This document shows, in pieces, positions 3,873 to 37,831 of a stretch of DNA of 64,000 bases (within the stretch, counting starts at the first letter, position 1; each line of letters starts with the position of its first letter). Under the pieces are notes generated by a model. The model was not told the DNA's origin, made no database searches, and saw only the letters and a program-made list of their open reading frames with translations. Both the position numbers and the translations under genes were made by a program. The DNA is taken from the NCBI RefSeq assembly GCF_005116455.1, contig NZ_SWBP01000001.1:1-64000 (forward strand), written 5' to 3'. The DNA comes from Pedobacter cryophilus (GTDB taxonomy: Bacteria > Bacteroidota > Bacteroidia > Sphingobacteriales > Sphingobacteriaceae).

Positions 3873-4643
3873 ATGAAGAATACTTTTTTAATTATAGTAA
3901 TAAGCCTTTTTAGTTTTTTTGGCTATTCCCAAAACTTTCCAGCAAAACCCAATCAATTAGTAAACGATTATACCAAAACTTTAAGTGCCGATCAAGTTGC
4001 TAGTTTAGAACAAAAATTGGTTGCTTTTAGCGACTCTACTTCTATACAGGTTGCTGTTGTAATGATCCAATCTTTAGATGGATATGATATTAATGATTAC
4101 GGATACCAATTAGGTAGAGCTTGGGGAATTGGCGGCAAAGAAAAAAACACAGGCGTTTTAGTGCTTGCTTCTATTGGTGATAGAAAAGTAACCATTCAAA
4201 CTGGTTACGGAATGGAAGGCGTTTTACCGGATGCCATTACCAAAAGAATTATAGAAAACGAAATTAAGCCAAATTTTAAAGCCGGTGATTATTACGCCGG
4301 AATGGATGCCGCAACTAATGCCATTATTAGTTACACAAAAGGCGAATATAAAAACGACAGTCCGCGAAAAAGTGGCAAAAAAGGTTTCCCAGCAGGTTTA
4401 ATTGTTTTAATTGTTGTTGGTGTTTTATTATTGATTAGCCGAGGTGGTAAAGGTGGCGGTGGTAGAAGTGTGATTGGTAGCCGAGGCGGTGCTGATATTG
4501 TTTGGTGGTCTTTACTATCCGGACTGGGCGGAAGAGGATCTGGCGGTGGCGGAGGTTTTGGAGGCGGCTCATCTGGTGGTGGAGGTTTTGGCGGCTTTGG
4601 CGGCGGAAGCTTTGGCGGTGGCGGATCTAGCGGAAGTTGGTAA
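3873..4643 (+). CDS. TPM domain protein with Gly-rich tail (YgcG-like)
   Basis: A 256-residue envelope protein. A cleavable-type signal peptide (about residues 1-19, ending FFGYSQ) is followed by the TPM domain (about 25-150; NDYTKTLSADQVASLEQKL, GYGMEGVLPDAITKRIIENEIKPNF), a basic linker, a membrane segment near residues 172-190, and a tail of Gly/Ser/Phe repeats ending in SGSW. This is the common YgcG/DUF-type architecture in which a periplasmic TPM domain is anchored by a C-terminal helix. The operon with lemA and a second TPM gene is a frequent arrangement. Function is unknown; a role in envelope homeostasis is inferred. Confidence 0.88.
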   Translation: MKNTFLIIVISLFSFFGYSQNFPAKPNQLVNDYTKTLSADQVASLEQKLVAFSDSTSIQVAVVMIQSLDGYDINDYGYQLGRAWGIGGKEKNTGVLVLASIGDRKVTIQTGYGMEGVLPDAITKRIIENEIKPNFKAGDYYAGMDAATNAIISYTKGEYKNDSPRKSGKKGFPAGLIVLIVVGVLLLISRGGKGGGGRSVIGSRGGADIVWWSLLSGLGGRGSGGGGGFGGGSSGGGGFGGFGGGSFGGGGSSGSW

Positions 4644-4703
4644 CCCCTAAATCCCCTGAAAGGGGACTTGCATTATTACCTATATAAATTAAAGAATTTT
4701 ATT

Positions 4704-4738
4704 AAAAAATCCTGCTTCTAATTGAGGTAGGATTTTTT
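4704..4738 (+). terminator. intrinsic terminator after the lemA-TPM operon
   Basis: The stem AAAAAATCCTGC pairs with GTAGGATTTTTT (12 pairs, one G-T), with an 11-base loop and a run of T at the end. It lies 60 bases after the last TPM gene and just before the Nudix gene, so it would separate the two transcription units. Confidence 0.75.
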
Positions 4739-4749
4739 ACTTTTAAGGC

Positions 4750-5301
4750 ATGAGCATTTTAAAATGGAGAACCGTTTCTTCTGAATACCTTGTTAAAAAA
4801 CCTTGGGCTACCTTACGTGTAGACGAATGTGAATTACCTGATGGCCGCTTAGCCAAAGAATATTATGTTTTAGAATACCCAAATTGGGTAAACGTGGTAG
4901 CCATCACCAAGGATGAAAAAGTGATTATGGTAAAACAGTATCGCCATAGCGGAGGTTTTGTTTCTATTGAAATTCCGGGTGGCGTAATTGATGGGGACGA
5001 ATACCCAATTGATGCCGCTAAAAGAGAATTACTAGAAGAAACCGGTTATTTGTTTGAAGATTTTGAACTGGTTTCTACCATTTACCCCAATCCTGCCACT
5101 TCAAATAATGTTACTTATTGCTATTTGGCAAAAGGTGGCATTAAAGTTCAAGAGCAAAATTTAGATGAACATGAAGATATTGATGTAGAGTTTTATTCTA
5201 TTGAAGAGGTAAAACACATGCTGCTAAAAAACGAAATTCCGCAAGCTTTACATGTAACGGGTTTGCTTTATGCTTTTTTAAAAATGGGAGTTTTGAGGTA
5301 A
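4750..5301 (+). CDS. Nudix hydrolase (ADP-ribose pyrophosphatase-like)
   Basis: A 183-residue Nudix enzyme. The signature GX5EX7REUXEEXGU is fully present (GGVIDGDEY...RELLEETGY at about residues 76-99), giving the Mg2+-binding Glu residues. Upstream, YVLEYPNWVNVVAITKDEKVIMVKQYRH and downstream FELVSTIYPNPATSNNVTYCYLAKGG resemble the ADP-ribose/NADH pyrophosphatase branch, which clears nucleotide-sugar derivatives. The substrate cannot be fixed from sequence. The gene starts 11 bases after a terminator hairpin and is followed by a 699-base repeat-rich gap. Confidence 0.88.
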   Translation: MSILKWRTVSSEYLVKKPWATLRVDECELPDGRLAKEYYVLEYPNWVNVVAITKDEKVIMVKQYRHSGGFVSIEIPGGVIDGDEYPIDAAKRELLEETGYLFEDFELVSTIYPNPATSNNVTYCYLAKGGIKVQEQNLDEHEDIDVEFYSIEEVKHMLLKNEIPQALHVTGLLYAFLKMGVLR

Positions 5302-5413
5302 GCTAAAAGAGTCTGAAGACCGCGGACCGCAGTTTGGGTGGAAAGCTTAGAGTGGGTAAAAGCTTAGCGTTAAATATTTGTAAAGCAAGTTTCTGTTTTC
5401 ATAGCTTCCGATA

Positions 5414-5519
5414 GTCTGGTTTTACGCTGTATTTTTTTGGGCTCTAACCCTTTCGACTCCGCTCAGGATGACCAAAAAAGATGCCGCTTCAACCCAGTTT
5501 ATTTTACGTGGGCTTTTGC
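5414..5519 (+). repeat. family 2 repeat, copy A
   Basis: The left flank is GTCTGGTTTTACGCTGTATT. The core carries CGACTCCGCTCAGGATGACC. The right flank is GATGCCGCTTCAACCC followed by GTTTATTTTACGTGGGCTTT. The flanks recur at 5823-5899, 12082-12140, 33801-33900 and 37721-37831, while the core differs between copies. Confidence 0.6.
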
Positions 5520-5548
5520 AAAGAATTTAAAGCTCTACTGAAAGACAT

Positions 5549-5620
5549 GTAGGGATAATCCTCGGATTATCCGTTTGTGAAAAGATGATGATAAAGGACA
5601 ACCCGAGGGTTATCCCTACG
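5549..5620. repeat. palindromic repeat family 1, copy A
   Basis: The element opens with GTAGGGATAA and ends with TTATCCCTAC, an outer inverted repeat. Inside are two perfect nested hairpins, GGATAATCC-TC-GGATTATCC and, in this copy with one change, GGACAACCC-GA-GGGTTATCC. The same unit recurs at 5701-5780, 30437-30499, 31210-31291 and 31870-31950. It resembles a REP/BIME-like non-autonomous element. Confidence 0.75.
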
Positions 5621-5700
5621 TATCTCAAAAAAATTGTAGGTCTTAAGATTGAATTAAATATGAAAGAGGTTGAGATACCCTCTTAACTACAGACAAAAAT

Positions 5701-5780
5701 GTAGGGATAATCCTCGGATTATCCGTTTGTGAAAAGGTTAATTTATGATTATACAGGATAACCCGAGGGTTATCCCTACG
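5701..5780. repeat. palindromic repeat family 1, copy B
   Basis: A full copy with intact outer arms GTAGGGATAA / TTATCCCTAC and both nested 9-bp hairpins. It lies 80 bases after copy A, in the same orientation. The linker between the hairpins is A/T-rich and differs from copy A. Confidence 0.75.
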
Positions 5781-5822
5781 TATTCCAAAAATAAATTAAC
5801 GAACATGTTTAGTTGGGAAATA

Positions 5823-5899
5823 GCAGCACAAGCCCAAGTAAAATAAACGGGATGGCAGCAAATACCGTAGCGCAGCGGAGTATTGCGAACAGCCCGACT
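5823..5899 (-). repeat. family 2 repeat, copy B
   Basis: In reverse orientation to copy A. It begins with a match to the right flank (AAGCCCAAGTAAAATAAACG, then GGATGGCAGC) and ends with the left flank GCGAACAGCCCGAC. The core is ATACCGTAGCGCAGCGGAGT, unlike any other copy. Together with copy A it could form a very large inverted repeat across the gap. Confidence 0.6.
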
Positions 5900-5949
5900 G
5901 GCTTTGCCGAAGAACTACTACAGTACCTTTTCAAAAAATCATCACACAA

Positions 5950-5984
5950 AAAAATCCCGTTAAGTTAGACCTAACGGGATTTTT
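5950..5984 (-). terminator. bidirectional intrinsic terminator after dnaA
   Basis: A perfect 13-bp stem, AAAAATCCCGTTA / TAACGGGATTTTT, with a 9-base loop. It is A-rich on one side and T-rich on the other, so it would work in both directions. It lies 16 bases beyond the dnaA stop codon. Confidence 0.8.
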
Positions 5985-6000
5985 GCTCAGAAAATTTATG

Positions 6001-7428
6001 TTAGCTCATTTTAAGCTTTTTCTGAATATCGTGAACGTAAGCCTTAAACTTTTTGTCGGTGTCAATTAAATCTTCTACGGTTTGGCAAGCGTAAATAACG
6101 GTGGAGTGATCTCTGCCGCCAAAGAAAGCGCCAATTGATTTAAGAGACGTTTTAGTATGGCTTTTTGCCAAGTACATAGAAATTTGACGAGCTTGAACAA
6201 TTTCTCTTTTACGAGTTTTAGATTTTACCATTTCTACTGGCACTTCAAAATACTCGCAAACTAATTTCTGGATGTATTCCATAGAAATCTCTTTGCTTGT
6301 GTTTTTGATAAAGTTCTTTAACATTTGCTTAGCTAACGCTAAATCTATCTCTTTCTTATTTAAAGTAGATTGTGCCAATAAAGAAACCATTGCACCTTCT
6401 AACTCTCTTACGTTATTATCAATATTGTTGGCAACGTATTCTATTACATCATTTGGTAATTCTATACCGTCTTGATACATTTTCTTTTTCAAAATTGCCA
6501 TTCTGGTTTCAATATCCGGAACAGAAAGATCAGCAGAAAGTCCCCATTTAAATCTAGACAACAATCTTTCTTCTAAACCGGCCAAATCTTTTGGTGGTTT
6601 ATCTGAAGTGATGATTAATTGCTTACCTGATTGGTGCAGGTGATTAAAAATATGGAAGAAAATATCTTGAGTTTTGTCTTTTCCGGCAAAGTTGTGTACA
6701 TCATCCATAATGATGATATCCATGGCTTGGTAGAAATTCACAAAATCATTAATGGTATTGTTTTTTAAAGAATCTACAAACTGTTGGCAAAACTTTTCGC
6801 AAGAAACATAGATGACCAATTTATCTGGCATGTTTCTTTTTACTTCGTTTCCAATGGCTTGTGCCAAGTGGGTTTTACCTAAACCAACACCTCCGTAAAT
6901 CATCAATGGATTAAAAGAAGTTCCACCTGGTTTTGCGGCAACGGCATAACCTGCAGAGCGAGCTAAACGGTTACAATCTCCTTCAATGAAGTTTTCGAAA
7001 GTGTAATTTGGATTGAGCTGTGGATCTACTTGTAATTTTTTAAGACCTGGTATTACAAACGGATTTTTGATGTCCTTATTGAGTGCAACTGGCATTGGGA
7101 TAGACTGTGTCTTTCCTTCGGCACCGTTACCGCTTGATGGTAAATTTGTAGTGTAAGGCTTTTGAGAGGAAGATTTTTCTACAACAATATTGTATTCTAA
7201 CCTTGCCGAATCTCCTAATTGTTTCTTGATGGTTTTTCTTAAAAGACCGACGTAATGTTCTTCAAGCCACTCATAAAAGAATAAACTTGGCACTTGTATG
7301 GTTAAAATGCTTTCCTCAAGCCTTAGTGGAATAATAGGTTCAAACCAAGTTTTAAAACTTTGGGTTGGTATATTATCCTTTATGATTTGAAGACAGTTCT
7401 CCCAAACATTGTTGCAAGTTTTTTCCAT
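6001..7428 (-). CDS. dnaA: chromosomal replication initiator DnaA
   Basis: A 475-residue DnaA. Domain I (about 1-80; FKTWFEPIIPLRLEES, FYEWLEEHYVGLLRKTI) mediates oligomerisation and helicase loading. A short linker leads to the AAA+ domain starting near NPNYTFENFIEGDCNRLA, with Walker A GGVGLGKTH (179-186), Walker B IIIMDDVH and the arginine-finger region LLSRFKWG. The C-terminal domain ends in the DnaA-box recognition signature GGRDHSTV (437-444). Length is normal for the family. It acts in the cytoplasm to open oriC. It is followed by a bidirectional terminator. The 97 bases upstream show no obvious TAnnTTTG promoter and no cluster of DnaA boxes. Confidence 0.98.
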   Translation of the reverse strand: MEKTCNNVWENCLQIIKDNIPTQSFKTWFEPIIPLRLEESILTIQVPSLFFYEWLEEHYVGLLRKTIKKQLGDSARLEYNIVVEKSSSQKPYTTNLPSSGNGAEGKTQSIPMPVALNKDIKNPFVIPGLKKLQVDPQLNPNYTFENFIEGDCNRLARSAGYAVAAKPGGTSFNPLMIYGGVGLGKTHLAQAIGNEVKRNMPDKLVIYVSCEKFCQQFVDSLKNNTINDFVNFYQAMDIIIMDDVHNFAGKDKTQDIFFHIFNHLHQSGKQLIITSDKPPKDLAGLEERLLSRFKWGLSADLSVPDIETRMAILKKKMYQDGIELPNDVIEYVANNIDNNVRELEGAMVSLLAQSTLNKKEIDLALAKQMLKNFIKNTSKEISMEYIQKLVCEYFEVPVEMVKSKTRKREIVQARQISMYLAKSHTKTSLKSIGAFFGGRDHSTVIYACQTVEDLIDTDKKFKAYVHDIQKKLKMS

Positions 7429-7525
7429 ATAATTTTCTAATCTGTTGTATTCTAATGCGATGGAAGATGTCTAGGGGCGACTACTTCCGAGCATCGAAGA
7501 TTCAAAAAAAAAACGGTTAAAAAAA

Positions 7526-8476
7526 CTAAAATTTGAAATTATTTTCAATCACCTCTATTGAAGAGTTATAGGTTATTTTTTTACTGCTATTTCTTGAAAA
7601 AGCAAAGTCGATGCGGCCTAAATTTAATCCCGCAAAACCTACCTGATTGACTAAAGTTTCCCTTCCTGCCTTATTTTTTACAATTTCTGGTGAATTTAAG
7701 AAGGTATGTGTATGCCCGCCAATAATTAAATCTGTATGATAAGTGCTTTGCGCCAGAACCAAATCAGAAACTTTATCCTCTTTGTATTTGAAGCCTAAAT
7801 GCGAAAGACAAATTACTAAATCACACTTCTGATCTAGCTTTAAAAATTTCTCCATTTCTAAAGCTTTTTTAATAGGATCGAGATATTTTGTGTTGCCATA
7901 TTGTTGAGGATTTACTAAACCTGTTAACTCTATTCCTAAACCATAAACTCCAATTTTGAGTCCCTCCTTTTTAAAAATTTGGTACGATTTAGATTTCCCT
8001 TCCATAGCAGTATCGGTAAAATCATAATTGGCATTTAAAATTGGAAACTTTGCATGTGGCAATTGCTTTACAAAACCTTCTACTCCGTTATCAAAATCAT
8101 GATTTCCCATAATTGAGGCATCATAACCCATCATACTCATCATCTTAATTTCTAATTCGCCGCCATAGAAGTTAAAATATGGTGTTCCTTGAAAAATATC
8201 TCCAGCATCTAAAAGCAAAACATTTCTTTCTTCGGCTCTTATTTTACTAATTAAGGCCGCTCTTGATGCTATGCCGCCTTTACCAGCATTTCTAGATCCA
8301 TCCATCGGGAAAGGATCAATTCTGCTGTGCACATCATTGGTATGCAAAATGGTAAGGTTAACAAAATCATCTTTTGCAAAAACACTATCGGCTTTAAAGC
8401 CTAAACCTAATAATGCGGCACCGGTAAGGGTGTTTCTTAAGAAGTTTCTTCTACTATTTGATTTTAATTCTTCCAT
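7526..8476 (-). CDS. metallophosphatase, 5'-nucleotidase N-terminal domain, Tat signal
   Basis: A 316-residue secreted calcineurin-like phosphoesterase. The N-terminus carries a Tat-type signal (NSRRNFLRNTLTGAALLGLG). Metal-ligand motifs of the 5'-nucleotidase/UshA catalytic domain follow: LTILHTNDVHSR, LLLDAGDIFQGTPY, MGNHDFDNG, VICLSHLG and IIGGHTHT. The UshA substrate-binding C-terminal domain is missing and is instead encoded by the gene directly upstream, which overlaps this one by 23 bases in another frame. The likely function is periplasmic hydrolysis of nucleotides or related phosphoesters, with the two products acting together. Confidence 0.88.
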   Translation of the reverse strand: MEELKSNSRRNFLRNTLTGAALLGLGFKADSVFAKDDFVNLTILHTNDVHSRIDPFPMDGSRNAGKGGIASRAALISKIRAEERNVLLLDAGDIFQGTPYFNFYGGELEIKMMSMMGYDASIMGNHDFDNGVEGFVKQLPHAKFPILNANYDFTDTAMEGKSKSYQIFKKEGLKIGVYGLGIELTGLVNPQQYGNTKYLDPIKKALEMEKFLKLDQKCDLVICLSHLGFKYKEDKVSDLVLAQSTYHTDLIIGGHTHTFLNSPEIVKNKAGRETLVNQVGFAGLNLGRIDFAFSRNSSKKITYNSSIEVIENNFKF

Positions 8477-9197
8477 CGTTCACAGGGTTTAAGGTTTTTC
8501 CAGCTTTTTTTAATTTCTCTAAGTATTGAAGAATGGCATCTCGCAATTTAAAATCTAAATTTTCTCGCTCAATTAATCGGGTAAAAATGGCGCCACCGTC
8601 TCCTCCGTTCGCCATATAATCTGATGTAAGTACGGTATATGTTTTACTAGCATCAAAGGGAATTCCGTTTATAGTAATATCAATAGCTTTTTTATTGCTG
8701 ATGGTAAATCTTGCTCCCGAAATTGGATCTCCTCCACCTTCGGCGATATAATCAAAGAAACGTTGAATGTCTTCTCCTTTAAATTTTACAGTTACCAAAG
8801 CATTCTCAAAAGGCATTAATTCAAAAATTTTATACCTGTAGATTTCTCCTTTTGGCAAGGGAATTCTTAAACCGCCGTAATTGGTGTAAGCAAAATCAAA
8901 AGCTATTCCTTTGTCTTTGGCGCTATCATACATGGCATCGGCAAAGAAATTATTTAAAGGCCCTTCTGGCTGTGCTTTTTGAATTTCCATTTCAGAAATG
9001 GCCACTACATCATTCATTAAAGAATCTAATTTGATTCTGTAAGGCTTGTAGAAGGCTAACATTGCCGAATCTTTTGGCAAGTTTTCTGTAATTGGAATGA
9101 GTTTTTTCTCGGTTTTTACGAGTTGTAGTTTGGGGCTACAAGCACCTAAAGCAACTAGGCCTAAAAAGGCTAAATTGCGTAAACTATTTTTTATCAT
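8454..9197 (-). CDS. 5'-nucleotidase C-terminal domain lipoprotein
   Basis: A 247-residue lipoprotein (signal ending VALGACSP) consisting of the 5_nucleotid_C domain. Recognisable motifs are NFFADAMYDSAKDKGIAFDFAYTNYGGLRIPLPKGEIYRYKIFELMPFENALV and VLTSDYMANGGDGG, the last being the substrate-stacking region of the UshA C-terminal domain. It lacks the phosphatase domain, which is supplied by the overlapping downstream gene. The end of this gene and the start of the next overlap by 23 bases, so translation is probably coupled. Different export routes (Sec lipoprotein here, Tat for the partner) argue for two genuine genes rather than a frameshift. Confidence 0.85.
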   Translation of the reverse strand: MIKNSLRNLAFLGLVALGACSPKLQLVKTEKKLIPITENLPKDSAMLAFYKPYRIKLDSLMNDVVAISEMEIQKAQPEGPLNNFFADAMYDSAKDKGIAFDFAYTNYGGLRIPLPKGEIYRYKIFELMPFENALVTVKFKGEDIQRFFDYIAEGGGDPISGARFTISNKKAIDITINGIPFDASKTYTVLTSDYMANGGDGGAIFTRLIERENLDFKLRDAILQYLEKLKKAGKTLNPVNDGRIKIK

Positions 9198-9234
9198 ATT
9201 GTTTGAATGAATTCCACTTATTATAACGTTATTT

Positions 9235-9375
9235 TTTTTTCACGAATGAACACGAATCTTAAATATCAGCTTAATCGCTTTTAAATACAAACGCAATTGA
9301 AACTAATACTCTGCAAAACGCTTTTTACTGTAACTCTATTTTTTTGCCACGAATACACGAATTAACACGAATGCT
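9235..9375. repeat. ACGAAT intergenic repeats
   Basis: Two short blocks, TTTTCACGAATGAACACGAA near 9238 and TTTTTTGCCACGAATACACG near 9341, the second continuing AATTAACACGAATGC. They belong to the same degenerate word family seen at 3240-3350 and 61555-61800. Apart from this, the gap 9198-9394 shows nothing. Confidence 0.45.
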
Positions 9376-9394
9376 TATTTGGCTTTGAACATTT

Positions 9395-10942
9395 TTAATA
9401 TTCTCCAAAAACACTTCTAAGTGTATCGGCAATTTCTCCTAAAGTTGCGTATTCTTCAACAGCTGCTAAAATAAAAGGCATTAAGTTTTCATTACCTTTT
9501 GCGGCTTCTTTAAGCTGGGCTAACTTTAAACTTACTGCATCGTTATTTCTCTCGGCTTTAAGCTGATTAATTTTATCTATTTGAGTTTGTCTGATGCTAT
9601 CATCTACTCTAAATACATCAGGATTTACTTTTTCTTCTGATTGATATTTATTTACACCCACAATAATTTGTCGGCCCGCTTCAATATCCATTTGATATTG
9701 ATAAGCAGCATCGGCAATTTCTTGCTGAATATATCCTTGCTCAATTGCATTTACAGAGCCTCCCATCAAATCTATTTTATCAATGTATTGGTATGCTGCG
9801 GCTTCCATTTCGTCTGTTAAAGACTCTACAAAAAATGAACCTGCCAAAGGATCTACCGTTTGGGTCACACCGCTTTCAAAAGCAATGAGTTGTTGCGTTC
9901 TTAAAGCAATTGATGCCGCTTCTTCTGTTGGTAAAGAAAGTGCTTCGTCAAAACCATTGGTGTGCAAAGATTGCGTTCCGCCTAGTACAGCAGCCATTGC
10001 CTGGTTGGTTACTCTTACAATATTATTAATAGGCTGCTGAGCTGTTAAAGTAGAACCACCTGTTTGCGTATGAAACCTTAATTGTTGTGCTCTTTCATCT
10101 GTTGCACCCAAATCTTTAGTGATGTTTGCCCACATTCTTCGGGCTGCTCTAAACTTGGCAATCTCTTCAAAGAAATTGTTATGGCAGTTGAAGAAAAAAG
10201 ATAATCGCTTTGCAAAAACATTAATATCTAAGCCTTTCTCTAAAGCGGCTTTTAAATAAGTTTTTCCGTTGGCTAGTGTAAAAGCTAATTCTTGTACCGC
10301 TGTTGAGCCGGCTTCTCTAATATGATAACCAGAAATAGAAATGGTATTCCATTTTGGAACTTCTTTACTACAATATTCAAAAACATCGGTAATTAACCGC
10401 ATGGATGGTTTTGGAGGGTAAATATAGGTTCCTCTTGCTGCGTATTCTTTTAAAATATCATTTTGGATAGTTCCTGAAATCTTTTTTAAATCTGCTCCTT
10501 GCTTTTTTGCTAACGCAATGTACATGGCCAAAAGCGTTGATGCGGTGGCGTTAATAGTCATAGAAGTTGTGATTTTTTCTAATTCTATTCCGCTAAAAAG
10601 CATTTCCATGTCTTTTAAAGAATCTATGGCCACACCTACTTTTCCTACTTCCCCTTCAGACATGGCATGAGTACTATCATAGCCAATTTGTGTAGGTAAA
10701 TCAAAAGCTACTGATAGCCCGGTTGTACCTTGTTGTAATAAATAATGGTAACGTTTGTTAGATTCTTGGGCAGTTGAAAAACCTGCGTACTGGCGCATTG
10801 TCCACAATCTCCCTCTATACATGTCCTTTTGAATTCCACGAGTGAACGGAAATTCGGCAGGCAACTCTTGCATAGGATTACAAGTGCTGTAAACTTCTTT
10901 AATTTCTATACCCGATGAGGTGAATACTTTTTGTGTTGACAT
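9395..10942 (-). CDS. methylmalonyl-CoA mutase family catalytic subunit, no B12 domain
   Basis: A 515-residue acyl-CoA mutase large subunit holding only the TIM-barrel substrate domain. Family motifs are [72 protein letters not shown] and [14 protein letters not shown]...NIVR. The Tyr of RQYAGFST and the Arg of [10 protein letters not shown] match the residues that in methylmalonyl-CoA mutase contact the substrate carboxylate, favouring methylmalonyl/succinyl-CoA over isobutyryl-CoA. The cobalamin-binding domain that ends full-length MutB is absent and no partner is in the window, so a small B12-binding subunit must be elsewhere. It lies 8 bases after a membrane-protein gene. Specificity is inferred. 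Confidence 0.85.
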
Positions 10943-10950
10943 GTATAATT

Positions 10951-11478
10951 TTATAATTCCTGAATATCTCTTTTTAGGACCAACAACGCTAAATCGAAAG
11001 GGTTTTCTTCTACCTCACTCAATCGGTTAAAAATAACTTTACTCAAATCAACCGCCGAAGCTTCGGGATGTAAATTGGCAATAGATTGATTTACTAAATT
11101 AATGGTATCTTCTTTTACTCTTTTAATGATGTTCCAAGCATCATTACTGATGTACAATTGCTGAGAAATATTGTGCTGATATTCGGCTCTTATTTCTGTT
11201 AAAATCAGATTTTGCATTTCTCTTGCATCCATACCAGATACATGCAGCCTTACCAATAAATTAGCAGGGTTAATACGTTCTACAAAAAGGGTCATCCTTT
11301 CATAAGCCTGTAATTTTAATGGCAATATATCTTTTACCACTATGGTTTTATATTCTAACTCTTTAAGGTTGTAATAAGTATCAAACTGATTCTTTATTAA
11401 AAAGTAAGCGGCAAAGAAAACGAACAAACCTGATAGTGTGTATTTTAAAACATCAAAAAAGAAAATACTAATGTCCAT
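10951..11478 (-). CDS. conserved membrane-anchored protein
   Basis: A 175-residue protein not assigned to a characterised family. It has one N-terminal membrane helix ([10 protein letters not shown], about residues 10-28) and a helical, charged cytoplasmic region containing [31 protein letters not shown] and ending in [24 protein letters not shown]. The tight link (8 bases) to the acyl-CoA mutase gene suggests one transcription unit, but the same arrangement could be incidental. The gene starts 89 bases from the divergent Fe-S carrier gene. No enzymatic motif is visible. Confidence 0.7.
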
Positions 11479-11539
11479 GTTGCTATTGTAAGTTATTGGT
11501 AAAAAAGGTGAATAAAAAACAAAAATCTACATTTTGCCT

Positions 11540-11547
11540 TATATTTG
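11540..11547 (+). promoter_or_regulatory. -7 promoter element of the Fe-S carrier gene
   Basis: TATATTTG is an exact TAnnTTTG match, 20 bases before the ATG at 11568. No clear -33 TTG is seen at the expected distance. Confidence 0.6.
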
Positions 11548-11567
11548 TGTAATTAATTTATTGATTT

Positions 11568-11918
11568 ATGAGCACAGCAGTAGAAACAGCAGCACCCGTA
11601 AGTTTAACCGAAGGTGCAAAAAAAGAAGTTAAAAAATTAATGTCGCAGCAAGAACTGGGAAGTGAGTTTGGTTTACGTTTAGGTGTAGAAGGAGGTGGTT
11701 GCTCTGGAATGAGTTATGTTTTAGGTTTTGACCAGATCAAAGAAGGCGACAGCGAGTATGAAATTGAGGGCATTCGTGTTTTTATGAACAAAGCACATGG
11801 ATTATATTTGGTGGGAATGCAAGTAGATTACCAACAAGGTTTAAACGCTAGAGGTTTTATTTTTAATAACCCTAATGCCGAAAAAACTTGTGGTTGCGGA
11901 ACCAGTTTTTCAGTTTAA
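11568..11918 (+). CDS. A-type iron-sulfur carrier (IscA/ErpA/SufA)
   Basis: A 116-residue A-type carrier that holds and delivers Fe-S clusters to apo-proteins. The domain SLTEGAKKEVKKLM...GLRLGVEGGGCSGMSYVLGF contains the first Cys (GGCSGMSY), and the C-terminus CGCGTSF contains the other two, so all three cluster-binding Cys are present. Length is typical. It has its own promoter and terminator, so it is monocistronic, which fits an ErpA-like stand-alone carrier rather than a suf-operon member. Which of IscA, ErpA or SufA it equals cannot be told from sequence alone. Confidence 0.93.
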   Translation: MSTAVETAAPVSLTEGAKKEVKKLMSQQELGSEFGLRLGVEGGGCSGMSYVLGFDQIKEGDSEYEIEGIRVFMNKAHGLYLVGMQVDYQQGLNARGFIFNNPNAEKTCGCGTSFSV

Positions 11919-11942
11919 TTCTTTTTAGTTTTTTATTAATAT

Positions 11943-11976
11943 AAATGCCAGCTTTGAGAGAAGGCTGGCATTTTTT
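11943..11976 (+). terminator. intrinsic terminator after the Fe-S carrier gene
   Basis: The stem AAATGCCAGC / GCTGGCATTT is a perfect 10 bp with an 11-base loop and a T-run. It starts 25 bases after the stop codon. Confidence 0.85.
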
Positions 11977-12387
11977 ATTTATAAGCTTATTTCCAGAAAT
12001 ATTCTACGTAACCCTTGCTCCCACATAAAGAAAATCAATACCATTTATTTAATTAATGTTTTGGGCGTTCCCCTGAAAAAGGGTCGGGCTTTTTCGCTAA
12101 ATCTTTTGGCAAAAAGGCCAAAAGGATGCCGCTTCAATCCCTTACGCAGAACTTATATGAGTTTGTAACTCATTTAGTTTTGGATTAATTGCAATGACCA
12201 AAATTAAATAAACCCAATTGAAGCGGAAGCTCCCCGCTCTTTTTGCTGGGACTACAACGGAAAGTGGATAAGCGAAACCTAAGAACACAGGAATTTGCTT
12301 TTCAAATTATTTTCATCTGTAACAATGCTTATGAATGTGCTGTCTAAACACTAATAATTTGTATTTTTAGCTAAAGCTGTTAAATAA
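11977..12387. other. intergenic gap with family 2 repeat
   Basis: No gene is seen in these 411 bases. The middle (12061-12230) is a copy of repeat family 2. The last 130 bases are A/T-rich leader sequence of the permease gene and contain only imperfect promoter-like words. Confidence 0.6.
12061..12230 (+). repeat. family 2 repeat, copy C
   Basis: The left flank GGGTCGGGCTTTTTCGCTAA and right flank AAAAGGATGCCGCTTCAATC match the other copies. The core is a small hairpin (CTTTTGGC, loop, GCCAAAAG). A 10-bp inverted repeat, CCGCTTCAAT (12129-12138) and ATTGAAGCGG (12217-12226), extends the element to the right. Confidence 0.6.
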
Positions 12388-13620
12388 ATGGATAACATAG
12401 AAAATGTAAAAGTTGCGCTTCAATCTATTAAAAGTAATAAGTTGAGGACTTTTTTAACAGCCCTAATTATTGCTATTGGCTTGATGGCTTTGGTGGGGAT
12501 TTTAACTTCTATTGATGCCATTAAAGGATCGTTAAACAACACTTTTGCGAGTATGGGCGCCAATTCTTTTACCATTAGAAACCGGGGTACCGGAATTAGA
12601 ATTGGTGGAAATGGCAGCAGACCTAAGCGCTGGCCTGTAATTACTTACCGTGAGGCGATGGATTTTAAAGAACGTTTTACGGTTCCTTCCACCATTTCTG
12701 TAAATACTTTTGCCTCATTTGCAGCAACTGTAAAATTTAAAAATGAAAAAACTAACCCAAATATTTCTGTTTTAGGTGCTGATGCTGGTTATGTTTTTAC
12801 CGGAGGATATAAAATTACTGAGGGCAGGAATTTCTCGGCTAGTGAAGAGGAGTTTGGGGCAAGCGTAGTTATTATTGGCGATGAACTTAAACAGAAGTTT
12901 TTTAAAAATGAAAGTGCTTTAGATAAAACGATTACCATTGGAAGTAATAAATTTAGAGTAATTGGGGTGTTTGCTCCCAAAGGATCGAGTGTTGGTTTTG
13001 GAGGTGATAAAGTATGCGTGATTCCGGTTTTTAAAGGCCGACAAATTATGACGAATCCGAACCCAACTTATACCATTTCTGTAATGGTGAATGACCCTAC
13101 AAAAATGGATTATGCTGTAGGTGAGGCAACTGCCTTGATGAGAAATATCAGAACATTAAGCATTCAGCAAGAAAGTAACTTTGAAACTACAAAAAGTGAT
13201 GCCATTGCCGAAACACTAATTAGCAATTTAAAATTTGTACAAATTGCGGGTATTGCTATTGGTTTAATTACTTTAATTGGAGCTGCCATTGCGTTAATGA
13301 ATATCATGATGGTTTCTGTAACGGAAAGAACCAGAGAAATTGGCATCAGAAAAGCGATTGGCGCCAACCCAACTTTAATTAGAAAACAGTTTTTATATGA
13401 GGCCATTGTAATTTGCTTAATTGGCGGTGGTTTTGGAATATTTTTAGGCATTGTAATGGGTAATTTATTAGCCATTGCTATGGGCGCTTCATTCTTAATT
13501 CCGTGGGGTTGGATATTGCTAGGCTTGTTGGCTTGTGTAACTACAGGTTTAGCTTCGGGAATTATACCGGCTTCTAAAGCTTCAAAATTAGACCCTGTTG
13601 AAGCTTTGAGGTATGAGTAG
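12388..13620 (+). CDS. ABC transporter permease (MacB/FtsX family)
   Basis: A 410-residue permease with the MacB architecture: a first membrane helix (about residues 21-43) after IENVKVALQSIKSNKLRTFLTALIIAIG, a long periplasmic MacB_PCD domain (about 45-275) and an FtsX domain with three more helices (about 285-400) containing SVTERTREIGIRKAIGA. Such permeases pair with a LolD/MacB-type ATPase to drive mechanotransmission across the envelope, exporting peptides, lipoproteins or toxins. No ATPase or membrane-fusion gene is adjacent, so its partner is encoded elsewhere. The gene is flanked by repeat-containing gaps and appears monocistronic. Confidence 0.9.
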   Translation: MDNIENVKVALQSIKSNKLRTFLTALIIAIGLMALVGILTSIDAIKGSLNNTFASMGANSFTIRNRGTGIRIGGNGSRPKRWPVITYREAMDFKERFTVPSTISVNTFASFAATVKFKNEKTNPNISVLGADAGYVFTGGYKITEGRNFSASEEEFGASVVIIGDELKQKFFKNESALDKTITIGSNKFRVIGVFAPKGSSVGFGGDKVCVIPVFKGRQIMTNPNPTYTISVMVNDPTKMDYAVGEATALMRNIRTLSIQQESNFETTKSDAIAETLISNLKFVQIAGIAIGLITLIGAAIALMNIMMVSVTERTREIGIRKAIGANPTLIRKQFLYEAIVICLIGGGFGIFLGIVMGNLLAIAMGASFLIPWGWILLGLLACVTTGLASGIIPASKASKLDPVEALRYE

Positions 13621-13632
13621 AAGCCTCATCCT

Positions 13633-13659
13633 AAGTCCTTCTCCAAAGGAGAAGGACTT
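13633..13659. terminator. hairpin after the permease gene
   Basis: AAGTCCTTCTCC / GGAGAAGGACTT is a perfect 12-bp stem with a 3-base loop. The T-run comes only about 10 bases later, so it may be a terminator or one of the CTCC-AAA-GGAG palindromes that are dispersed in Bacteroidota genomes. Confidence 0.45.
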
Positions 13660-13779
13660 TGACTTGCGTATTTTTTTTTTCAAACTGGCAACTTATAAAC
13701 TGACACATCAGAGCTGATCAAAACTGGTAAAGAAAATACTCATTTCATGACTGGCAACTGATAACTGGTAACCGAGAAA

Positions 13780-14520
13780 CTACTTCAACATTTCGTTTTG
13801 CAAACTCGATTCTTCTAACAAAATTTTGGTGTGGGGTAAAAATAAAGATTGGTGCAAAGCATCAGCATGTTTGGGGTGATGCATATCTGAGCCTATAAAA
13901 TCAACCATCATATTATCTACCAATTCTTCTGCTACTTTTTGTGTTTGTTTACCGTAGTAGCCACTTAAAGAAATAGTGTTGAGTTGAAAAAAGCATCCAT
14001 ACTCTCTTATTTTGTAGAAATTTTCTATTGAACCGTATAAATAGGGATAGCGTTCTGGGTGGGCTAAAATTGGTTTGTATCCTTTATCATTTAGTTTTTG
14101 AATAACTTCTTTAAGATTATTAGGAAAGTTGATGTACGAAAGCTCAAAAAGCAAATAGTTATTCCCCATGGTAAGGAGATTTCCTTTTTCGATTTTACTT
14201 TCAAAAGTTTCATCAAAATAATATTCGGCGGCAGCTTCAATAGGAATTTCAATTCCCTGCTTTTGCAACTCTAGCTGTAATTCTCCTAATGCTTTGTTAA
14301 TAGTTTCTGGCGTATTGCGGTAATAATCTGCCATGATATGAGGTGTGGCAATTAATTTATTAAACCCTAAATCAATTAATCTTTTCACCAACATTACAGA
14401 TTCTCTAACCGTTGGTGCGCCATCATCAATACCGGGAAGGATATGCGAGTGCATATCTATCCCAATACTTTTAAAATCAAATTCTGGTTTTTTACTCTTC
14501 TTTTTGAATAGATTAAACAT
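13780..14520 (-). CDS. CpsB/CapC-type tyrosine phosphatase (PHP family)
   Basis: A 246-residue cytosolic phosphatase of the PHP superfamily. Metal ligands are visible in IGIDMHSHILPGIDDGAPT, IATPHIM, ILAHPERYPYLY and IGSDMHHPKH. Members (CpsB, YwqE, Wzb-like) remove phosphate from tyrosine autokinases that control capsule and exopolysaccharide chain length. The start codon overlaps the stop of the rmlB-like gene by one base (TAATG), so it is translationally coupled to a sugar-nucleotide operon, supporting a role in polysaccharide synthesis. The cognate Wzc-type kinase is not in the window. Confidence 0.88.
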   Translation of the reverse strand: MFNLFKKKSKKPEFDFKSIGIDMHSHILPGIDDGAPTVRESVMLVKRLIDLGFNKLIATPHIMADYYRNTPETINKALGELQLELQKQGIEIPIEAAAEYYFDETFESKIEKGNLLTMGNNYLLFELSYINFPNNLKEVIQKLNDKGYKPILAHPERYPYLYGSIENFYKIREYGCFFQLNTISLSGYYGKQTQKVAEELVDNMMVDFIGSDMHHPKHADALHQSLFLPHTKILLEESSLQNEMLK

Positions 14521-15572
14521 TACCTGTTTTGATATTGCTCTTCATAATAATGCTGATAATTACCAGAAGTTACATTATTTAGCCATTTTTCGTTTTCTAA
14601 ATACCAATCAACTGTTTTTTCTAAGCCTTCTTCAAATTGCAAGCTTGGCTCCCAACCTAAATCGGTTTTTAATTTAGTAGCGTCTATGGCGTAACGTAAA
14701 TCATGTCCGGCTCTATCAGTTACGTAGGTAATTAATTTTTCAGATTCTCCTTCTGCCCTACCTAATTTTTTATCCATTACCTTACATAACGTTCTAATGA
14801 GATCAATATTAGTCCATTCATTATGGCCGCCAATATTATAAGTTGTACCGGTTTTAGCTTTATGAAAAATTACATCAATTGCTCTGGCATGATCTTCTAC
14901 CCAAAGCCAATCTCTAATATTTTCGCCTTTACCATAAATTGGGATGGCTTTATTTTGCTTGATGTTATGGATAGAAAGCGGAATCAATTTTTCGGGAAAG
15001 TGATATGATCCATAATTGTTTGAGCAATTAGAAATCACACAGTCCATTCCGTAAGTATCAAAATAAGCTCTAACAAAATGATCTGAACTTGCTTTTGAAG
15101 CCGAATATGGCGAGTGAGGATCGTAAGCTGTGGTTTCGGTAAACATTTCTGATCCTTCACCTAAACTTCCGTAAACTTCATCAGTAGAAACATGATAAAA
15201 GCGTTTTTTATCATAACTGCCTTTCCAAGAAGTTTTAGCAGCATTCAATAAATTCACAGTCCCAACAACGTTGGTCATCACAAATTCTATAGGATTAGAA
15301 ATTGATCTGTCTACATGAGATTCTGCTGCCAAATGTATCACTGCTTCAAATTGTTCTGCTTCAAATAAATCATGTATAAAAGCAGCATCAACTATATCTC
15401 CTTTTACAAACTTGTAATTAGGTGCTTGCTCAACATCTAATAAATTTTCTAAGTTACCTGCATAAGTCAACTTGTCTAAATTTACAATTTGGTAGTTTGG
15501 ATAAGTAGATACAAATCTTCTTACCACATGTGACCCTATAAATCCGGCTCCACCGGTGATGAGTATTTTCAT
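14520..15572 (-). CDS. rmlB: dTDP-glucose 4,6-dehydratase
   Basis: A 350-residue short-chain dehydrogenase/reductase that converts dTDP-glucose to dTDP-4-keto-6-deoxyglucose. Visible motifs are the NAD-binding TGGAGFIGSHVVRRF, HLAAESHVDRS, the catalytic VSTDEVYGSLG and YSASKASSDHFVRAY (Tyr/Lys pair), and NNYGSYHFPEKLIPL. The frame can be extended by 12 residues upstream, but ATG at 15572 (MKILITGGAGFIG) is the canonical start; the extension would lie in a hairpin-rich gap. It is followed by the CpsB-type phosphatase with a one-base overlap. rmlA, rmlC and rmlD are not present here, so the downstream deoxysugar is unknown. Confidence 0.93.
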   Translation of the reverse strand: MKILITGGAGFIGSHVVRRFVSTYPNYQIVNLDKLTYAGNLENLLDVEQAPNYKFVKGDIVDAAFIHDLFEAEQFEAVIHLAAESHVDRSISNPIEFVMTNVVGTVNLLNAAKTSWKGSYDKKRFYHVSTDEVYGSLGEGSEMFTETTAYDPHSPYSASKASSDHFVRAYFDTYGMDCVISNCSNNYGSYHFPEKLIPLSIHNIKQNKAIPIYGKGENIRDWLWVEDHARAIDVIFHKAKTGTTYNIGGHNEWTNIDLIRTLCKVMDKKLGRAEGESEKLITYVTDRAGHDLRYAIDATKLKTDLGWEPSLQFEEGLEKTVDWYLENEKWLNNVTSGNYQHYYEEQYQNR

Positions 15573-31858: not shown

Positions 31859-31869
31859 GATAATATATT

Positions 31870-31950
31870 GTAGGGATAATCCTCGGATTATCCGTTTGTG
31901 AAAAGGTTTAATTCTTAAAATTTGAAGGATAACCCGAGGGTTATCTCTAC
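31870..31950. repeat. palindromic repeat family 1, copy F
   Basis: A full copy starting GTAGGGATAA and ending TTATCTCTAC (one change in the outer arm). Both nested hairpins are intact. It starts 12 bases upstream of the GNAT start codon, so it lies in that gene's promoter region. Confidence 0.75.
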
Positions 31951-31976
31951 ATTTTTTGCAATAGCCAACAACTCGG

Positions 31977-32110
31977 TTAAGTGTTCCTTTTTCAGGATCA
32001 CTTAAATGTTTCTGGACTTCGTCCGTTATAAATTACCTTATCGCTTCGAATGCCGGATACAGTCCTCAGTTTTCATGTTTAGGTTTAAGTGATCCTTCGG
32101 AACACTTAAA
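31977..32110. repeat. 134-bp element with terminal inverted repeats
   Basis: The ends 31977-32006 (TTAAGTGTTCC...GGATCACTTAAA) and 32084-32110 (TTTAAGTGATCC...GGAACACTTAA) are reverse complements with a few mismatches. Each end is itself nearly palindromic. The interior is about 77 bases and non-coding. It looks like a MITE, ending 25 bases past the reverse transcriptase stop codon. It could alternatively be a structured RNA transcribed with that gene. Confidence 0.7.
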
Positions 32111-32134
32111 TCAGAATGGGGAAAATTAGACAAT

Positions 32135-33712
32135 TTACTTGTTTTTTAAAGCTATTACTATTAATGAATTGATATCACTATGACCTGCCCAGGCCTTATA
32201 ACAAGTATCTCTTTCTTGTGTAGAAAAATATTGAGCTGCAAATAAAATTGCTGATTGAACATATTCAGAATTCTCAGATTGATAATGAGTTTTTAATATT
32301 CTTCTAAAAGCAGAATTCCCATGTTTTCCTAATATAATAGCACAAATACCCCTTAATGTATTGTTCACATTCGATTTCAAGTCTTTTATTGCAAGGTTTA
32401 AAATCTCTGGACTGGCGTCATTAAGGTATAATATTAATGAATAGACCCATTTCTTTTGATAGTCAAATATCAAATTAGGTTTACTCAATAATCCTTCAAT
32501 ATCTATAACTGATACTTTATCATTAACTATCATTTTTCTTAAATAACCAAAATAAGTTTGAGCTAAACTTGGCTCATCAGCAAAGTTTTTCAGAACAGAT
32601 GATAAGGCGTAATCTGAATTGAAAGTTGCAAAGACAGACAAACAATATTTTTCGATTTTAAATCTGCTTGAGGGTTCTTTATTTGAGTCATAAAGCTTTT
32701 TAGTTGCCTCTAATTTTAAGTCTTCTTGATCGTATTCGTCATCATATTCAAAACCGGTCTCTAAATCCCAAAGTATACTAGCTGAACCATATTCTACATC
32801 AAATTCTATTGTTCTCTCTAAAATTTCTTTCTTAGCTTCTTCAAACAATTTATCTAATTCAGATTCCTCGTTTAGTAATTCATTTACTTCAAAAATTTTT
32901 GTTTTACTTTCATTGAGAGTTAGTCCATCAATTCGCAGCCAATTACCTAATCTAACTTTATGAATTCTTGCATCATTTAAATTTTCAAAGAAAATATACA
33001 TATCATCAACATATCTAGCGAATTCTAATCCCTCAACCGAATGAAGAGCATCAATACCACAAAGAGAAAAATTACCAAGTAAGTCCGAAGGGAATACTCC
33101 TTGTATAATACCATGGGAATCATTTTCACTTAACATTAACATAAATCTTTCTAAGAAACTAACTGCATTTCTATCTGCACCAGATGAATATAAAAGATTT
33201 CCTATGTTATGTTGATAAATTTTATCAAAATATGAGGCAATGTCCGCTTTAAGCACATATGAATATTTCCCGCAAATACATAATTCCTGTATTCTATTTT
33301 TAAAATTATCAAAACTTTCACTGGATTTTTCAAACATATACCCATCTTCATCATTTTCCAGTAGAACATTACTAAAAACTTGAGTTCTATCTATCTGCGT
33401 CTCTGCATAAGTTGAAATAGTATCAACAATTAATTGGTAAGCTAATCTATCAATCGGTTCTAAAATCGAACCTTTTCTACTAAATCCATTAGGCTTAATT
33501 ACATTCATAGAAATCGGTAATCTGGCAGAATAATTTCCGCTTAACAGCTTGGTTTTAAGTTGTTCAAATAGCTCTTGAGATGCTTTCTCAAATATTATAG
33601 AATAATGTGGCGCAAAAATAAAATCACTTGAAATATCTTTCTTTATCCGTTTTATACTTAAATCAAGATTGAAAATATCTAATATTTCTTTGTTAATTCC
33701 TATTCCTTTCAT
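32135..33712 (-). CDS. stand-alone reverse transcriptase (UG/Abi-like)
   Basis: A 525-residue RNA-directed DNA polymerase. Motif A is YVLKADIASYFDKI (Asp157), motif B-like GIIQGVFPSDLLGN (201-214), and motif C FARYVDDMYIFF with the catalytic YVDD (234-237); LTLNESKTKIF follows as the motif D/E region. All catalytic Asp residues are present. The N-terminus lacks the maturase features of group II introns, and there is no HNH domain. Residues about 290-525 form a long, all-helical, HEAT-like region (LRGICAIILGKHGNSAFRRIL, SEYVQSAILFAAQYF). This fits the unknown-group/Abi reverse transcriptases linked to phage defence; retrons usually have shorter C-termini. Repeats flank both sides and no effector gene is adjacent. 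Confidence 0.82.
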   Translation of the reverse strand: MKGIGINKEILDIFNLDLSIKRIKKDISSDFIFAPHYSIIFEKASQELFEQLKTKLLSGNYSARLPISMNVIKPNGFSRKGSILEPIDRLAYQLIVDTISTYAETQIDRTQVFSNVLLENDEDGYMFEKSSESFDNFKNRIQELCICGKYSYVLKADIASYFDKIYQHNIGNLLYSSGADRNAVSFLERFMLMLSENDSHGIIQGVFPSDLLGNFSLCGIDALHSVEGLEFARYVDDMYIFFENLNDARIHKVRLGNWLRIDGLTLNESKTKIFEVNELLNEESELDKLFEEAKKEILERTIEFDVEYGSASILWDLETGFEYDDEYDQEDLKLEATKKLYDSNKEPSSRFKIEKYCLSVFATFNSDYALSSVLKNFADEPSLAQTYFGYLRKMIVNDKVSVIDIEGLLSKPNLIFDYQKKWVYSLILYLNDASPEILNLAIKDLKSNVNNTLRGICAIILGKHGNSAFRRILKTHYQSENSEYVQSAILFAAQYFSTQERDTCYKAWAGHSDINSLIVIALKNK

Positions 33713-33800
33713 AATTGTATCATATTAAAAATTAGTCTTATTATATCACATTATTTTAATTTAAACGATATAAAACTAGTTAAAAACCAATCAAATAGTA

Positions 33801-33900
33801 GCAAAAGCCTAAATTAAATAAACGGGATGGAAGCATTTGTTTGAGCTCTTTTTTATGCTTTTTTGGAAGCATAAAAAAAGCGAGTGCGTACAGCCCGACT
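33801..33900 (-). repeat. family 2 repeat, copy D
   Basis: Reverse orientation. It begins GCAAAAGCCTAAATTAAATA, then AACGGGATGGAAGC, and ends GCGTACAGCCCGACT, matching the conserved flanks. The core is a perfect 12-bp hairpin, TTTTTTATGCTT (33849-33860) with AAGCATAAAAAA (33867-33878), different from every other copy. Confidence 0.65.
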
Positions 33901-33998
33901 AGCGGAACCTATAAATGACGAACCTTGCTTTTCTAAAAAAATCTAAATAAATTCGGAATAATAAGGCTTCGACTCCGCTCAGCCTGACAATTGGCAAA

Positions 33999-37720: not shown

Positions 37721-37831
37721 GGATTGGGCGCTTTTACAGGCTTTACGCTATATCTTTTTATTTTCATCCTTCGACTCCGCTAAGGATGAAAATAAAAAGG
37801 ATGCCGCTTCAATCCTTAGCGCAAAGCTCAT
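37721..37831 (+). repeat. family 2 repeat, copy E
   Basis: It starts immediately after a stop codon. The left flank is GGATTGGGCGCTTTTACAGG then CTTTACGCTATATC; the right flank is AAAGGATGCCGCTTCAATCC. The core is a perfect 18-bp inverted repeat (37754-37771 with 37782-37799) around the loop CGACTCCGCT. It may also act as the terminator of the lamin-tail gene. Confidence 0.65.

Follow-up and report, generated by a model that had tools for sequence, protein, structure and literature searches.

The reverse transcriptase (RT) gene on the minus strand at positions 32,135 to 33,712 of a 64,000-nucleotide stretch of Pedobacter cryophilus DNA (hereafter ‘the window’, meaning the whole stretch analysed) almost certainly encodes a member of UG20, a rare RT class already catalogued in the 2023 PADLOC library. 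The window RT is an intact, diverged addition to this catalogued class, not a new kind of system. A preliminary description had presented the gene as a candidate undescribed defence system of a subfamily that could not be decided by eye and might be new; the subfamily can now be named, and the suggestion of novelty falls because the protein matches, over its full length and with 624 bits, a class held in that library. As an overall explanation we favour, with somewhat better than even confidence, a single-gene, DNA-making defence RT of UG20 and Class 1.

Identity and architecture of the window RT

The open reading frame (ORF) starts with ATG and runs for 525 codons with no internal stop, far beyond the longest ORF expected by chance (154 codons among 200 first-order Markov randomisations of this 4-kb region), and is therefore not a chance product. 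RVT_1 is the sole Pfam family above its cut-off in the protein (44.4 bits against a curated 29.6), covering residues 123-275 (positions 32,888 to 33,346, minus strand), and no maturase or endonuclease domain rises above the Pfam cut-off. The YVDD motif occupies residues 234-237, and Asp157, Asp236 and Asp237 are invariant in all 12 rows of the wider alignment A2. Within its own genome, the gene is the single RVT_1 match at E ≤ 0.001.

Class assignment comes from profile searches. RT_UG20 is the best match in PADLOC-DB (623.7 bits, E 7.6e-188), aligning protein residues 4-522 of 525 with profile positions 2-511 of 511, and the runners-up among the best 25 of 61 matching families are RT_UG21, Drt8 and RT_UG19 at 218, 177 and 154 bits, respectively. 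Eight NCBIfam families match at E ≤ 1 with none above its own cut-off; for example, Drt5 scores 91 bits against a cut-off of 550.

An RT tree, which the preliminary description had called for together with the profile searches, points the same way. It draws on 68 gathered RT proteins, including the window protein and some duplicate contigs, of which 40 were placed using 235 retained columns of the palm; typed rows bear PADLOC labels, and 23 rows have no group. UG20 proteins form a single clade (SH-aLRT 98 in this quick tree) of three rows, the frame-broken copy at locus L043 being omitted. Drt8 and Drt3b share the UG20 side of a split with an SH-aLRT of 94, and UG17 (DRT10), UG9 and the single UG19 row fall on the opposite side. 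Since the tree was built by a quick method, with SH-aLRT support alone, a midpoint root and one row (L106) on a long branch, we regard the apparent placement of UG20 on the Drt8/Drt3b side as moderate evidence.

Downstream of the palm, residues 290-525 (positions 32,138 to 32,845, minus strand) are predicted to form an all-helical, alphaRep/HEAT-like domain. Two AlphaFold2 models, for which the window protein was aligned with viral relatives alone, have a mean pLDDT of 62.6 (first) and 64.3 (second), and both contain about 12 helices at residues 329-523, a prediction of low to moderate confidence. Confidence is good for the palm of the first model (block means 71-95, residues 141-280); in the second, the helices have block means of 48-84 over residues 331-500 and 30-51 beyond, with pLDDT below 50 at residues 296-334. 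Foldseek searches of the PDB rank DRT4, UG15 and DRT6 structures first to fourth for the first model, followed by group II intron RTs (ranks 5-6) and AbiK; for the second, the first seven places go to DRT6, DRT4, UG15, AbiA and AbiK, with a group II intron RT eighth. TM-scores against the DRT4, UG15 and DRT6 structures are low (0.35-0.47); RT-only structures of group II score higher, at 0.66-0.71, if normalisation is by the short length of those structures themselves.

Profile comparisons of the two halves of the protein add to this. At E ≤ 0.001, the UG20 profile A1 finds 24 PDB sequences, each by way of the palm and drawn from a mixture of group II, retron, AbiK, DRT4/UG15, DRT6 and DRT9 chains. 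Profile A5, built from the C-termini of four UG20 proteins, has four distinct PDB matches at E ≤ 1, every one an alphaRep protein (E 0.002, 0.0026, 0.0076 and 0.058); these matches are borderline, and in one of the four a single stretch passes alone. Moreover, hhalign of A5 against seven Drt8 C-termini gives a 74% probability (E 2.8e-5, 101 columns). The accessible parts of two papers describe Class 1 UG/Abi RTs as an RT joined to an alphaRep domain (PMC13174585, PMC12489045). Taken together, the predicted helices, the alphaRep matches and the similarity to Drt8 amount to moderate evidence, each test being weak alone, that the window protein has this Class 1 architecture, in which the palm and fingers of the RT precede the helical domain. 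The earlier view of an intact UG/Abi-type RT with a YVDD core and a HEAT-like helical C-terminus, neither retron nor group II, is upheld.

Relatives, distribution and genomic setting

Five UG20 loci are in hand (the window, L002, L043, L044 and L045), and three UG20 proteins are intact. The two intact plasmid proteins come from Candidatus Manganitrophus (Nitrospirota) and Sinorhizobium medicae, scoring 744 and 742 bits, respectively, against RT_UG20. Two of the three plasmid loci adjoin defence systems recognised by PADLOC, and the third lies among annotated toxin-antitoxin genes. On the Sinorhizobium medicae plasmid (L045), LmuA, LmuB and LmuC (473, 570 and 237 bits) and a CHAT-domain gene surround the RT; on a Rhizobium acidisoli plasmid, the RT (L043, 8,001 to 9,558) is split into two pieces and has HerA (558 bits), SIR2 (272), DarG (195) and, more weakly, DarT (45) around it; and at L044 VapC, PIN and RES-type toxin genes are annotated nearby. 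In finer layout, the L045 RT sits between a gene for a 1281-aa CHAT-domain protein and the Lamassu LmuABC set (3,905 to 15,066), and the split L043 RT follows the DarG/DarT-like pair, near SIR2-HerA. The fifth locus, in a Cytophagales metagenome-assembled genome (L002, 7,017 to 7,420), is a UG20 remnant of which two ends are left, 71 N-terminal residues with 48% and 63 C-terminal residues with 76% identity to the window protein. No other sequence seen in this analysis resembles the window protein as closely as this C-terminal piece.

Given these neighbours of the plasmid relatives and membership of a UG/Abi class, an anti-phage role for the window RT appears quite likely. At the window locus itself, inspection by eye of 53 non-overlapping ORFs recognised no defence neighbour; the ORFs resemble housekeeping, envelope and metabolic genes. 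An ORF at 6,001 to 7,428, whose start we take by eye to resemble DnaA, is some 26 kb away from the RT. On the viral side, searches with the protein and with A1 confirmed no UG20 member in the viral collection. The wider alignments A2 and A3 reach 13 and 18 loci there (two of the A3 contigs had been found before), and the six typed A2 loci are two each of Drt8, Drt3b and UG17; phage records contain two weak partial matches. Separately, one genus relative has three RT-like matches within 8 kb (G002:C3:350847-358677), two of them equal in score.

The class is patchily distributed around the window genome. The UG20 profile matches 7 of 18 genus genomes at E ≤ 0.001, with a UG20-level match solely in the own genome (623 bits; next 63), and 153 of 395 phylum genomes, the second-best of which (141 bits, after 623 for the own genome) is typed as Drt8 by PADLOC. 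Alignment A1 has its sole match in the own genome, both among 301 family genomes (E ≤ 1e-30) and, at E ≤ 1e-40, among 400 genomes of the order and 395 of the class, sets that overlap and that cover Bacteroidota-side genomes. Furthermore, the GC content of the gene is 29.3%, against 34.2% for the window, and is third lowest among the 53 ORFs. Patchy distribution combined with a GC content below that of the surroundings is the pattern of horizontal acquisition, and on these sequence features the gene was probably acquired in this way. The acquisition that had been proposed earlier fits this distribution, in which a UG20-level match occurs in a single genome out of 18 in the genus and out of 301 in the family.

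The RT gene lies, as first described, between what we take to be asd upstream and a GNAT-like ORF downstream, both names stemming from that initial reading of the sequence. In the genus, asd is found in 17 of 18 genomes, the own included, and we inspected the flanks of 16 asd loci of relatives and of one GNAT contig. Four of the 16 (G001, G003, G004 and G007) have dacB about 160 bp after asd, G016 and G017 have other cargo flanked by asd and GNAT (rhodanese together with Fic, and a transporter of the AI-2E family), an esterase-like gene occurs in G014 along with a remnant of GNAT, and in G006 a DUF4365 gene adjoins asd. Because the cargo behind asd differs among relatives, we regard this interval as a variable spot, with the RT as one among several cargoes. 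The variable spot of G006 also holds a gene whose product carries an IS200-like Y1 transposase domain (L072, 7,733 to 8,287, behind asd) and may have to do with how palindromic repeats move. GNAT itself is rejected as an RT partner, since it occurs without the RT in relatives: it is present in 6 of 18 genus genomes, and in G016 and G017 it follows asd with no RT there.

Repeats, partner RNA and alternative readings

Repeats flank the RT gene on both sides. Directly after its stop codon lies a paired-palindrome element (31,960 to 32,134, no strand assigned) with 27 matches in the own genome, including one long copy with 81% identity at C1:560707-560857, and beyond it an 85-bp palindrome (31,868 to 31,952, likewise unstranded) with 54; both counts include the element itself and count some places on both strands. 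Between the RT and asd is a Flavo-1-like element (33,816 to 33,904, plus strand). It was rejected as an RT-linked RNA, scoring 37.7 bits against a gathering score of 42 and resembling a dispersed family; it is absent among the genome-wide Flavo-1 matches listed. Flavo-1 has at least 107 matches in the own genome, 86 of them above the gathering score (150 of 1041 candidates scored), and it behaves, for example at 37,730 to 37,825 of the window, as a dispersed repeat, unlike a single sRNA gene. The bracketing repeats noted earlier are therefore real, but their reading as the mark of an island does not hold, because they are mostly dispersed through the genome. They neither prove nor exclude transfer of the RT gene, and the converse, ‘anti-island’ reading has been dropped as well.

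A different reading of the locus would make the RT a counterpart of DRT2, DRT9 or DRT10, copying a structured RNA encoded alongside it. The element after the stop codon, about 180 nt long, does fold well (z -2.97, with 0 of 200 shuffles as good), but we reject it as a 3′ non-coding RNA of the RT, since a sequence with 27 genome matches against one RVT_1 match is repeated away from any RT and makes poor evidence for a partner RNA. On the 5′ side, positions 33,713 to 33,990 fold no better than shuffled sequence (z -0.90, 36 of 200 as good) and were likewise rejected. Comparison of the locus with known families fares no better for an RNA partner, as the six Rfam matches at E ≤ 1 between 28,000 and 38,000 include neither a retron RNA nor one of a group II intron. 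An all-vs-all comparison of the 500-bp flanks of the five UG20 loci gives nothing in common at E ≤ 0.01, which is a weak test with few and diverged loci; the window against the other four yields, apart from stray matches of 17-20 bases, just two coding pieces of L002, each of 138 bp (77 and 83%). Flank comparison, Rfam and folding at the locus have thus found no RT-linked RNA, and the tree sets UG20 apart from UG17/DRT10. An RNA encoded elsewhere, or one too diverged for alignment, would be compatible with these results, and overall we consider an RNA-templated enzyme unlikely.

Only slightly less probable is that the gene is inert acquired cargo heading for decay, as the two broken loci among the five (the two ends of L002 and the two pieces of L043) might suggest; against this, all 525 codons of the window copy are uninterrupted and its catalytic residues are present. 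A role in DNA repair or another host function, in place of defence, has a precedent in the G2L4 RT, which acts in end joining according to the accessible part of PMC13015716. The palm of the model matches G2L4 and group II-like structures in Foldseek, and the window copy sits among apparent housekeeping genes as judged by eye; UG20 identity, the patchy distribution and the defence neighbours of the relatives suit such a function poorly, and it seems very improbable to us. That the protein is a retron or group II intron RT whose RNA has been lost is already refuted by the profile scores, and we give it next to no weight. Its matches to group_II_RT_mat (TIGR04416) and retron St85 are weak, at 76 and 26 bits, and lie far under the curated cut-offs of 300 and 235, compared with 624 bits for UG20. 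The PDB profile matches of the palm do include group II and retron chains, headed by chain 8bgj, an RT of retron/intron type, and by a group II RT, but RVT_1 is unaccompanied by any maturase or endonuclease domain.

Proposed activity and known systems

For the favoured reading, a single-gene Class 1 defence RT, the model is taken from relatives. In the accessible parts of the literature, the Class 1 enzymes studied are template-independent and some are protein-primed (PMC13174585, PMC9508834, PMC11077055, PMC13213688), synthesising DNA without a nucleic acid template (PMC13213688, PMC13314766). By analogy with AbiK, AbiA and DRT4, the UG20 RT would act from one gene, making DNA without a template from a protein primer, and for the window RT we consider such synthesis fairly likely. 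As in its relatives, the enzyme may oligomerise and be triggered by phage infection, whereupon the protein-linked DNA would become toxic or would sequester replication proteins. Our literature search, thin on subscription papers, found no functional study of UG20 RTs.

A candidate primer can be named. AbiA is described, in the part of PMC11077055 available, as priming from linker tyrosines Tyr298 and Tyr303, between palm and helices. The corresponding linker of the window protein (about residues 296-335; positions 32,708 to 32,827, minus strand) is acidic, predicted with low confidence and otherwise variable, and it keeps Tyr308, Gly309 and Trp315 in all four UG20 rows; Glu296, Ile297, Asp328 and Leu332 at its ends are also kept in 4/4. 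Tyr308 is one of seven tyrosines invariant in the four rows over residues 175-525, the others being Tyr234 and Tyr239 (in or beside YVDD), Tyr387, Tyr390, Tyr477 and Tyr484; the N-terminal part was compared in three rows. As its position matches that of the AbiA tyrosines, our guess is that Tyr308 could be the priming residue. We claim no homology of Tyr308 beyond UG20, as its alignment to a tyrosine of Drt8 or Drt8-like proteins varies with the MAFFT setting (1, 2 and 8 of 13 rows in three settings).

A bolder proposal, which we hold to be doubtful, is that UG20 is a further defence RT with its own primer, Tyr308 within the invariant YG...W of the acidic linker, and makes template-free, possibly base-patterned DNA. 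Among enzymes with a known priming residue in the papers cited here, as far as their accessible parts go, AbiA alone primes from the linker (PMC11077055); if linker priming holds, UG20 would be a second class with this arrangement, and the chemistry of its product might also be distinct. Very odd ways of making DNA have lately come to light among UG RTs, and each further class may add one. The window contributes an intact UG20 from a Bacteroidota-side genome, diverged from the plasmid ones and offering a specific candidate residue. Its importance depends on UG20 being an active single-gene system; at present it extends a catalogued class.

Several known systems resemble the window RT. DRT3b (UG8) is a Class 1 RT with an alphaRep domain in the accessible part of PMC13174585 and falls on the UG20 side of the tree; it differs in that Drt3b is absent among the best 25 of 61 PADLOC matches and scores 27 bits against an NCBIfam cut-off of 350, and the window genome has no second RVT_1 match at E ≤ 0.001. 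DRT8 supplies the nearest rows after UG20 in the tree and shares C-terminal profile similarity, but its 177 bits compare with 624 for UG20, and it has been reported with a PNP-type partner (PMC10952713, accessible part). AbiK, AbiA and Abi-P2 have an RT and a helical domain in common with the window protein, together with fold matches, yet are other UG/Abi classes, and AbiA carries a further HEPN domain, for which the window protein has no Pfam match. DRT4 (UG15) and DRT6, both single-gene and template-free, are the top fold matches over most of the window protein, which likewise is one gene with no RNA seen; membership of either is contradicted by best profiles of 77 (Drt4) and 64 bits (Drt6) against 624. 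The system to which the window RT belongs is PADLOC RT_UG20, described there as a DRT. Compared with its intact plasmid members, the window protein is 35-37% identical, scores 624 against 742-744 bits and has no recognised defence neighbour at its locus; it shares with RT_UG20 the full-length profile, the YVDD motif and the helical C-terminus.
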